DNA of 54,012 nt from Myxococcales bacterium (lineage in GTDB: Bacteria; Myxococcota_A; Polyangia; Polyangiales; Polyangiaceae). Positions 14,396 to 33,851 of the stretch are shown in pieces. The stretch is taken from the NCBI GenBank assembly GCA_013297655.1, contig JAAFHV010000025.1, positions 2,712 through 56,723 of the forward strand, in the 5' to 3' direction. Position 1 is the stretch's first letter; every line of letters starts with the position of its first letter. A program made the position numbers and the translations under genes. Below the pieces are notes generated by a model, which made no database searches, was not told the origin of the DNA, and saw nothing but the letters and a program-made list of their open reading frames with translations.

Positions 14396-14586
14396 TCGCC
14401 GCATCATGCCGAGGCCGTGTCCGCGAGTCGACCCGAAGCGCCTATGCCGCCCACGCCGCCATCTGCGAACGACAGAATTAAAGACCACGAGTGTATCTAA
14501 AATGTCTCGCCGCGTGCGTGTGGGCTCGTGCGTTCGAAAGAACGAACCCGCCGAGCCACGCGGACGAGCGCGGCGCGGCGGGTGCT

Positions 14587-14628
14587 CTAGAGCCCCGAAT
14601 AGGTTGAATCCGTCGGGTTAGGGCGTGG
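14587..14628 (+). repeat. solo copy of the CTAGAGC-type interspersed repeat
   Basis: Starts CTAGAGCCCCGAATAGG and continues TTGAATCC. It matches, in the same register, the two arms at 32374-32415 (+) and 32491-32532 (complement). Just before it, GGTGCTCTAG matches the outer end of the 32.5-kb arm, so the junction GCTCTAGAGC is a palindrome. It overlaps the stop codon of the 14618-16540 gene. Confidence 0.6.
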
Positions 14629-30190: not shown

Positions 30191-30540
30191 GCGGGATCCT
30201 CCGATGTCCTCGTCGCGCCGCGTTCGGTAGGAAGCGCGAGGAGCGTGCTCGCAGCATAGGCCGAGCGCTGTAGCCGAGGGTGTTTCGAGGGGTAAAGTTC
30301 GGTAAAAACGGGCACATTCGCGCGGGGTGCGCCGCGCGTTCCGCCATCGCCACGCGCTGCACGCGGCGCGCCTCCCGCTGCGAGTTGCCACGACGTGGCA
30401 TCCACCGGCCTCGCTTGCGGGCGATCGACAACCACGTTCGGACACGAGCCCTAGCAGGCTGCTGAAGAGTCCCGTCGTCCGTCCGCCGGCGCATCCGCAA
30501 GAGCTTCGTTGCGATCCTCCGGTGCGTGCTCACCTAGAAA

Positions 30541-30569
30541 ACGACCCTTGGAAGTCCCTGACGAGGGAC
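30541..30569 (+). repeat. first copy of 29-bp direct repeat inside the MITE
   Basis: Starts ACGACCCTTGGAAGTC and ends with GTCCCTGACGAGGGAC, a perfect 6-bp hairpin. Identical to 30620-30648, spaced 79 bp apart. Confidence 0.85.
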
Positions 30570-30619
30570 TAGGCTCCGCGCGCTCCTCGGATCGACGCCT
30601 CGCTCTTGCGGCGCGGACG

Positions 30620-30648
30620 ACGACCCTTGGAAGTCCCTGACGAGGGAC
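30620..30648 (+). repeat. second copy of 29-bp direct repeat inside the MITE
   Basis: Identical over 29 bases to 30541-30569, with the same GTCCCT/AGGGAC hairpin. Both lie within the terminal inverted repeats. Confidence 0.85.
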
Positions 30649-30940
30649 GGACGGACTCGGTCCCATTTTCAGCAGCCTGCTAGAAGCAAAGGCCCGACGA
30701 TGATGTCCGAAAGTGAGCGCCACACGTGACGACGGCGACCGCGACGAACGGCGCGAGCCACCTGATTTCGAGGGTCGGCATCTCCTGAATTCCTTCTCCT
30801 GCGCGAGGTGCGCAGCCGCCGGTTTTGGCAGCCGCGCAGTCTCGTCGTCGCGGGTGAGATTTAGGGAGGGGCCCCGTCGTCGCAATCTCCCGCGGGAGCT
30901 TTCGGGGCGCTCGACTTCCGTCTCGCGCGTGGCGTCCGAT

Positions 30941-32073: not shown

Positions 32074-32394
32074 GTGAAGCCGACCGACGCCCAAGATGCC
32101 ACCGAGCCCCTCGCCGATCGCGCCGTCGCCGACGCCGAGCGCGTGCGTCTCGTGCTCGCGGTCCGTGCCGCCATCGCGCTCGTGCGGGTGTACCGCGCAG
32201 AAGAAGGGCCCGCGGGCGAGCGTGAGGTCGCCTGCCTCGCCGAGGTCGCGCGCCTCCGCGAGGTGCTCTCGACGCGACGCCGCGCCAAGCACGCGCGAGG
32301 CTCGGTCCCGGCCGGGCCTGGCCTCGCGAAGACCGACGACGCGCGCGCGCTCGACCCGCCGAAACCCTCCAAGCTAGAGCGCCGATCAGGTTGA
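32074..32394 (+). CDS. hypothetical protein (106 aa), 46 bp after the dNK gene
   Basis: A GTG-initiated frame with strongly GC-biased third positions throughout, a good sign of coding in this genome. Residues about 10-70 form Ala/Glu/Arg/Leu-rich helices; the C-terminus is Pro/Lys/Arg-rich and basic. No family is recognised. The last codons and the TGA lie inside the left arm of the CTAGAGC inverted doublet, so the end may have been changed by that element. It may be co-transcribed with the dNK gene. Confidence 0.5.
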   Translation: MKPTDAQDATEPLADRAVADAERVRLVLAVRAAIALVRVYRAEEGPAGEREVACLAEVARLREVLSTRRRAKHARGSVPAGPGLAKTDDARALDPPKPSKLERRSG

Positions 32395-32532
32395 AGGACC
32401 GAGGATTTCGTGCGGTTAGCAAGGCGGTAGGCGCGACGACGACGGATAGTCTTCGATCTTAGGAGGAGCAACGACCCGCAGCGCCGGTAAACGCGCGAAA
32501 GCCGATGGGATTCAACCTGTTCGGTGCTCTAG
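32374..32532. repeat. 159-bp inverted repeat doublet with CTAG ends (REP/MITE-like)
   Basis: Two imperfect arms of about 42 bp point toward each other: left 32374-32415 (CTAGAGCGCCGATCAGG then TTGAA) and right 32491-32532, whose complement reads CTAGAGCACCGAACAGG then TTGAATCC. The ends are CTAGAGC and GCTCTAG. The ~75-bp centre carries no frame. A third, solo copy of the same arm is at 14587. Confidence 0.62.
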
Positions 32533-32588: not shown

Positions 32589-33851
32589 ATGCGACGTACG
32601 AAGGCCAAGGTGACCGTGCTCGACGTCGTCGAGGGCGTGTACGCGGGCCTCGCAGGCAGTTCCCCGAGCGCGTGGCTCGCCGAGGCCCTCGCCCTCGTCG
32701 AAGGGTATGTCGGTGAAGATCTCGGGGGCATCGCGCACGCGTACGACGTCTCCGGCCCGCCCGCCTCGTGGACGTTCTCGCGGCCGGTGGTGCACGGGAA
32801 GGACGCCTCGCTCGGCAACGCCGTGCTCGAGAGCTTCGCGATGCTTCCTCCTCGGGTGCTCGAGCGCTGCTACCGCGAGGCCGGGCCGGCGGGCACCTTC
32901 AGCCGCCTCACCGGGATGACCGTCGCCGATCTGCCGTCGGCGAAGGAGAGCGTCGCGTCGGCGCGCGACATCGCCGACCAGCTCTACGTAAACGCGCAGA
33001 ACCCGGACGATCGCGGGATGATCGTCGTCGTCAACGTCGCGAAGCGCCGTCCGTTCGGGGCCGAGTCCGTGCGCAAGCTCGCGCAGGTCGCCGCCCATCT
33101 CGCCGCCGCGCAGCGCATCGCGATGGGGGTCAGAAAGCTCGAAGCGCCGGCAGCCGTGCTCGAGGCGGACGGCAAATTGGCCGACGTCGACCGGGCACAC
33201 GAGGGCGCGATAGAGCTCCTCCGTCGCGCGGTGGTCAAGCTCGATCGTGCGCGCGCGACGGCGTCGCGACGACACGCCGACGAGGTCGTCGCGGAGTGGA
33301 CGGCGCTCCTCGCGGGCCGTTATTCGCTCGTCGACCGCCACGAGTCGGATGGCCGAAGATAGGTGCTCGCGATCGAGAACTCGCCCGACGTCCGCGATCC
33401 CCGCGGGCTGACGCGCAGCGAGGCGATCGTCGCGAGCTTGGCCGCGCGCGGCCACTCCGACAAGCTCGTCGCCTACGAGCTCGGCACGCGGATCGGGACG
33501 GTGAGCGCGCTCTTGGCGCGTGTGTACCGCAAGCTCCGTGTCCGCACCCGCGCCGATCTCGTCGACCGCCTGCGCGCCCCGCGCGAAGCCGTACCGCTCC
33601 ACCTCCCCGGCGGAGAGACGGTGCTCGCGTTCACGCAGCCGACGCCGACCCCGAGCCCGTTCCTCGCGAAGCTCTCGCCGGCGGAGCGCGAGGTCGTGGC
33701 GCTCGTCACGAAAGGCCATCGAAACGACGAAATCGCGGAGCTCCGCGGCACGAGCCCACGCACCGTCGCCCATCAGCTCACCCGCATCTACGAGAAGCTC
33801 GGCGTCGGCTCTCGTGCGGAGCTGTGCGTGCGTGTCGGCACGAACGCATAA
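32589..33851 (+). pseudogene. tandem-HTH LuxR-type regulator split by an in-frame TAG
   Basis: One reading frame runs from the ATG at 32589 to 33851 except for a TAG at 33360-33362. The first part (257 aa) is a sensory N-terminal domain ending YSLVDRHESDGRR. After the TAG, the GTG at 33363 continues VLAIENSPDVRDPRGLTRSE, with two LuxR-type helix-turn-helix domains (about 33396-33580 and 33678-33845). Both DNA-binding domains follow the stop, so a truncated first product could not bind DNA. In related proteins I would expect a Tyr here, so TAG probably came from TAC or TAT (inference). The second half might be translated separately from the GTG touching the stop. An earlier start at 32505 lies in a repeat and is disfavoured. 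Confidence 0.72.

Follow-up and report, generated by a model that had tools for sequence, protein, structure and literature searches.

A CTAG-ended inverted repeat family in a Myxococcales genome as a probable MITE mobilised in trans by an IS1182-type transposase

The window analysed here, a stretch of 54,012 nucleotides from contig JAAFHV010000025.1 of a Myxococcales bacterium (assembly GCA_013297655.1), contains a doublet of inverted arms at positions 32374–32532 and a solitary arm at 14587–14608. A sequence-only reading of this DNA had likened the arrangement to REP doublets or MITEs but did not recognise the family. The locus raises the question of which of these it represents, which enzyme moved it and why its copies lie at gene ends.

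The doublet is a complete copy of 159 bp, to which no strand is assigned, and belongs to the subfamily with the arm form AGGTTGAA. Its terminal inverted repeats are 22 nt long with CTAG outermost: the left one, CTAGAGCGCCGATCAGGTTGAA, occupies 32374–32395 on the forward strand (outer CTAG at 32374–32377), and the right one, CTAGAGCACCGAACAGGTTGAA, occupies 32511–32532 on the reverse strand (outer CTAG at 32529–32532). The interior (32396–32510, likewise without strand) is free of the cassettes described below and is partly self-complementary, as the arms reach 45 nt. These 45-nt arms are 76% complementary around a spacer of 69 nt and agree with each other at 20 of the first 22 nt and at 14 of the next 23. 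No ORF of at least 100 aa was found within the 159 bp. When up to three mismatches were allowed, three arm matches were present in the window (14587–14608 and 32374–32395 on the forward strand, 32511–32532 on the reverse strand) against 0.01 expected from 100 shuffles. The three arm copies claimed earlier thus exceed chance, and the inverted pair with CTAG at each outer end is borne out.

The solo arm, CTAGAGCCCCGAATAGGTTGAA (14587–14608, forward strand), had been described as abutting a GCTCTAG end. Indeed, its CTAG (14587–14590) doubles as part of a GGTGCTCTAG end, which the sequence reads as a 10-nt remnant of an opposite end at 14581–14590 on the reverse strand. The solo arm matches the doublet arms at 19–20 of the first 22 nt but at only 7–10 of the next 23, so the proposed arm of about 42 bp holds for the doublet, while for the solo copy the likeness is confined to the first 22 nt. 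The solo copy is presumably a truncated relic beside another element end.

The genome from which the window derives is available as a 9.9 Mb draft of 546 contigs (97.6% complete), in which arms were counted with up to three mismatches. The AGGTTGAA form gave 39 + 42 matches (one for the reversed control), and the dominant form CTAGAGCACCGAACMGYTYGAT gave 66 + 81, that is 147 sites (none for the control), whereby the two sets of matches overlap. The repeat is thus not limited to three copies of background similarity. The element catalogue was drawn from about 100 of the 147 dominant-arm places, those that were listed, and all counts of pairs are therefore lower bounds. The fetched stretches yielded 65 candidate pairs, sought only up to 420 nt, and 44 unpaired arms; 53 pairs with at most three mismatches per arm and a length of 100–260 nt were kept as elements, and 12 were dropped. 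Their sizes cluster at 160 bp (18 elements), 194 bp (10), 187 bp (4) and 221 bp (3). Over 160 bp, the copies on contigs C312 and C252 do not differ, and the C223 copy agrees with both at the inner 152 positions; therefore, the family has spread recently. The elements are accordingly short and without a transposase gene of their own, carry terminal inverted repeats and occur as many dispersed copies, some of them near-identical, as is typical of a MITE family. Two near-perfect palindromes of 29 nt in the same genome (C198:2717–2745 and C25:22327–22355) consist of two element ends only. Such mini-copies, C198:2717–2745 for instance, probably arose by deletion between the GTTCG or CGAAC repeats of both arms.

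The placing of these copies was compared with that of CTAG itself. This tetramer occurs 14 times in the window compared with 157 expected from base composition, an approximately 11-fold depletion, and its density is 0.09 per kb in predicted genes versus 1.38 per kb in intergenic DNA. The doublet family accounts for three of the 14 sites and another repeat for two, in each case as element ends. Intergenic positions account for 37 of the 53 elements; a further 13 fall on the TAG stop of a predicted gene and 3 within genes, while other CTAG sites in the same flanks number 27, 4 and 13, respectively; these counts are approximate, as genes were called by a simple codon-usage model and one CTAG was set at each junction regardless of the real end. 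The window doublet is one of the three in-gene elements, and its removal joins two frames. The codon-usage call places it between a predicted upstream gene (32074–32394, forward strand) and a predicted downstream gene (32589–33362, forward strand), as it places the solo copy outside predicted genes, and the in-frame TGA of the upstream ORF (32392–32394) is contributed by the left arm of the doublet, which agrees with the reported position between genes or at gene ends. Copies would thus lie at gene ends because CTAG is rare and concentrated between genes or at TAG stops, and because disruptive insertions are presumably lost.

A likely source of the ends, intact IS1182-family ISs, was found in related genomes. 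In Polyangium sp. 15x6 (order Polyangiales), an arm lies 11 nt past the stop codon of an IS1182-type C-terminal transposase fragment. A search with the IS1182 model (NF033551) in 59 genomes, the source genome and 58 relatives, gave matches in 38, of which 10 contained matches above the curated cut-off. At the best locus of six of these ten relatives (L083, L085, L087, L088, L089 and L090; 1730–1786 bp), CTAGA(G/A)..CGA ends flank the transposase on both sides, those of L089 and L090 being the most divergent; the best loci of the other four (L082, L084, L086 and L091) showed no such pair. Second IS copies with ends of this type are present in relatives G020 and G014. Furthermore, locus L055 is a 609-bp derivative in which an IS1182 N-terminal fragment (E 4.7e-19) lies between arms matching the AGGTTGA arms of the window. 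Of the 59 genomes, 37 contain one or more matches to the arm pattern, in many cases no more than the control; relatives G003, G022, G028, G057 and G058 exceed 25 matches each. The arm-rich G022 and G058 gave no IS1182 match.

On this basis, the doublet is very probably a MITE mobilised in trans by a DDE transposase of the IS1182 family that joins it to a CTAG-type tetramer. Such a transposase would recognise inverted ends of some 20-odd nt and join the element to the tetramer, leaving CTAG on both sides, and disruptive insertions would presumably be selected out, so that the surviving copies lie at gene ends. Movement of the copies studied here by an IS1182-type transposase is inferred, as are the present place of the enzyme and its chemistry. 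Beyond the ends, homology between the MITE interior and the ISs is not established, as the arm-ancestry scores are mixed: against composition shuffles, the inner arm positions of the 160-bp form reach z 4.2 and 3.3 with the IS start-side ends but 2.9 (left arm) and −0.9 (right arm) with the stop-side ends, and the window doublet arms reach 0.8 and 1.3 with the start-side and 0.9 and 3.6 with the stop-side ends.

In the draft of the source genome itself, the models IS1182 (NF033551), DDE_Tnp_1_6, DUF772 and DDE_Tnp_1 had no match. An IS with these ends, sought as the sequence-only reading had suggested, is accordingly detected in relatives only, and so is the sharing of ends with an autonomous element. 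Six of the fetched contigs of the source genome begin inside an element copy, so the repeats break this assembly and the IS may be missing from it. Possible explanations for the gap are such an omission, MITEs that are now orphans, or an engine of another family beyond the models tried.

To follow the target, filled and empty sites of ISs were compared. Three IS1182-type ISs have one CTAG-type tetramer at their empty sites and CTAG at both ends when filled, whereby a palindromic CTAG makes a 4-bp duplication indistinguishable from a 2-bp (TA) duplication. The IS of G020 interrupts one unit of a local repeat, whose neighbouring unit is uninterrupted and has a single CTAG (159 aligned columns, gapless); in the stretch aligned as a third unit, CTAG is absent through a gap. 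ISMgi3 of Mycolicibacterium carries CTAG on both flanks, and its joined site is covered to at least 80% by nine Rhodococcus plasmid records, the two examined showing CCAG once. A Nostoc element, with a transposase 42% identical and unannotated there, carries CTAG at each end, and its plasmid contains, at another place, a similar site with a single CTAG. In all three plasmid IS copies examined, the ISMgi3 and Nostoc elements included, the inverted ends adjoin CTAG on both sides. For the second IS copy of G020 (L172), GTAACCACTCCGCCTCATGGC was seen by eye in the flanks on both sides, a local direct repeat; insertion of the IS into tandem repeats may be common in the G020 setting. For the MITE copies, no empty site was present within the fetched stretches, the four matches obtained being copies that abut another end.

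The outer tetramers of the MITE copies do not all fit this picture. CTAG forms 77 of the 106 ends of the 53 elements, being present at both ends of 29 elements, at one end of 19 and at neither end of 5, and wherever an end is not CTAG (24 elements), the outer tetramers of the element differ from each other (0 of 24 agree). Among copies with at least 96% inner identity, CTAG is found at 27 of 38 ends, compared with 18 of 19 for an internal CTAG (Fisher p 0.045); lowering the identity to 90% gives 56 of 78 versus 36 of 39 (p 0.015), and to 80% gives 65 of 90 versus 39 of 45 (p 0.08). CTAG is thus less constant at the ends than at the internal site, and the outer tetramer therefore seems to derive from the target rather than from the element. 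The discordant ends possibly reflect inexact joining, adjacent deletions made by the transposase or later loss of CTAG. Replacement of stem-loops in the manner of IS1272 was also considered and rejected, as the empty IS sites retain the tetramer and the flanks carry no hairpin signal: stems in the flanks of the 53 copies scored 4.91 versus 5.05 (sd 0.15) for re-paired flanks, and no hairpin preference was detected.

Three other explanations were weighed against the IS1182 reading. The best of them, unlikely in our view, is a MITE of another transposase family (e.g. IS5-type or IS630-type) whose ends resemble those of IS1182 elements by convergence on CTAG. IS5 is reported to use a Py-T-A-Pu target and most often to duplicate CTAG (PMC5493358), and the source genome, scanned for a limited set of families, gave no IS1182 match; DDE_Tnp_1 and DUF772, however, are equally without a match there. 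Moreover, the likeness between the MITE and the IS1182-type ends spans most of about 20 nt and not CTAG alone, L055 carries arms of the window type on either side of an IS1182 fragment, and the transposase of the relatives, despite the shared CTAG preference, scores 314.5 bits with the IS1182 model compared with 65.2 and 50.5 bits with IS5 models.

Less likely still is an RNA structure or terminator retained because it is functional, for which spread would be secondary. As the sequence-only reading had proposed to check, the 171-nt stretch around the doublet was folded, giving −80.1 kcal/mol, a more stable fold than that of all 200 shuffles (z −5.9), and an alignment of 30 of the 53 copies showed changes on both sides in 13 of 40 consensus pairs, some within the outer 22 nt and some further in. 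A single transposase that reads two ends would, however, lead one to expect paired changes at the ends just as much. In addition, the neighbours of 36 intergenic copies are convergent in 12 cases, divergent in 11 and co-directional in 13, which is unlike terminators; no Rfam family reached the gathering threshold in the window, and several copies are near-identical and recent.

A REP doublet or BIME, in which a domesticated Y1 transposase (TnpA-REP, RAYT) spreads single-strand palindromes, resembles the family in its dispersed, palindromic and often intergenic inverted pairs but is hardly credible and was rejected, because the Y1 transposase sought at the suggestion of the sequence-only reading (PF01797) has no match in the source genome (three candidates scored; control positive in 5 of 14 known genomes), because reported REPs are 20–50 nt long behind GTAG (PMC8266576) whereas the present element measures about 160 bp and has CTAG at each end, and because such ends flank DDE transposases in the relatives. 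Of the earlier suggestion of REP doublets or MITEs, the second part is thus retained, given the many copies, the ends shared with intact ISs of relatives and the tetramer present once at empty and twice at filled sites of related ISs, and the first is abandoned.

More than half of the MITE copies (28 of 53) contain additional segments, for the most part 27 or 34 nt long, that share AAGTCCCTGACGAGGGAC. These cassettes occupy slots at about positions 50, 65 and 106 of the 160-bp form and at 67 and 130 of the window form; most have direct repeats of 2–5 nt, those at slot 50 are inverted, and both lengths occur at four of the five slots. The cassette core has 76 + 72 matches in the source genome (control 0). 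The fetched stretches contain 93 distinct cassette contexts, which a motif rule assigned to the doublet MITE family (48), to two other repeat families (20), to tandem arrays (12) or to none of these (13), some of the last resembling diverged MITE copies. A 26-nt cassette form has 93 sites in the source genome, 5, 3 and 3 in three relatives, and none in the other 55 searched. A tentative explanation, which we consider possible but doubtful, is that the MITEs serve as platforms whose fixed slots receive independently moving hairpin cassettes of 27 or 34 nt, which would insert at CG/ACG/GACGA with direct repeats of 2–5 nt in either orientation and would also have spread into other repeat families and reading frames. 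Alternatively, the cassettes may be exchanged between copies. If the platform explanation is true, they would rank among the smallest mobile sequences that we know of, and as a separate lead they may prove more surprising than the MITE. We know of no cassettes in the ISMac2-related MITEs compared below.

Head-to-tail arrays of the 27-nt cassette were observed at L204 (contig C274), L210 (C201), L216 (C287) and L223 (C503) of the source genome. At L210, an open frame runs through two cassette units and repeats DDPWKSLTR by eye; the cassette may there add in-frame peptides, as Rickettsia palindromic elements do. Cassette relatives at L230 and L231 (relatives G021 and G013) read AGTCCCCGACGGGGGAC, and by eye their small-stem changes are paired on both sides with respect to AGTCCCTGACGAGGGAC. 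Another repeat element of the window (30451–30683) carries CTAG at each end; its 16-nt inverted ends, CTAGCAGGCTGCTGAA, match perfectly and lie 201 nt apart. Two copies of the 26-nt cassette core ACCCTTGGAAGTCCCTGACGAGGGAC lie inside it (30544–30569 and 30623–30648), a cassette that is present in many copies of the doublet family and absent from the window doublet. At L102 in relative G043, 21-nt ends CTAGCAGGCTGCTGAAAAACC (95%) surround a 363-aa transposase matching the IS1182 model; because of this, the element at 30451–30683 may be a second CTAG-linked MITE family.

Combined, these results supply a likely engine and a target rule for an otherwise unnamed repeat of these genomes. Landing on a rare tetramer that ends in TAG explains positions at gene ends and stop codons without a broken gene, and comparing filled with empty sites allows CTAG duplication in this IS1182 group to be checked directly. 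The family is a new member of a known MITE type, unusual in its end pattern and its cassettes. No description of it was found in the open-licence PMC literature, and the words IS1182, CTAG and Myxococc are absent from a MITE review (PMC10969869).

In Methanosarcina acetivorans, MITEs have been tabled with ISMac2 (IS1182) as a possible autonomous partner (PMC3852290), one of 160 bp in 14 copies with the figures 26 and 4, read as the sizes of inverted and direct repeat, and one of 169 bp in 7 copies with the figures 25 and 0. The first shares its 160-bp size with the present family, and both share the possible IS1182 partner; the host is archaeal, and the likeness is drawn from the table entries. 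Within the IS1182 family, ISPsy36 is reported with the target GGCC (PMC8027508) and ISPse1 is tabled with an apparent 4-bp repeat (PMC3281130). IS1272 is described as replacing stem-loops, targeting and deleting hairpins with no duplication (passages of PMC5678879 and PMC4923244); it has the family name of its transposase in common with the proposed engine, but hairpin targeting or replacement was not seen for the doublet family. The closest counterparts in target use are ISMgi3 and the Nostoc element, which likewise have CTAG beside their inverted ends and a single tetramer at empty sites. Unlike the MITE, these ISs encode a transposase, are about 1.7–1.8 kb long and differ in their end sequences after CTAG.
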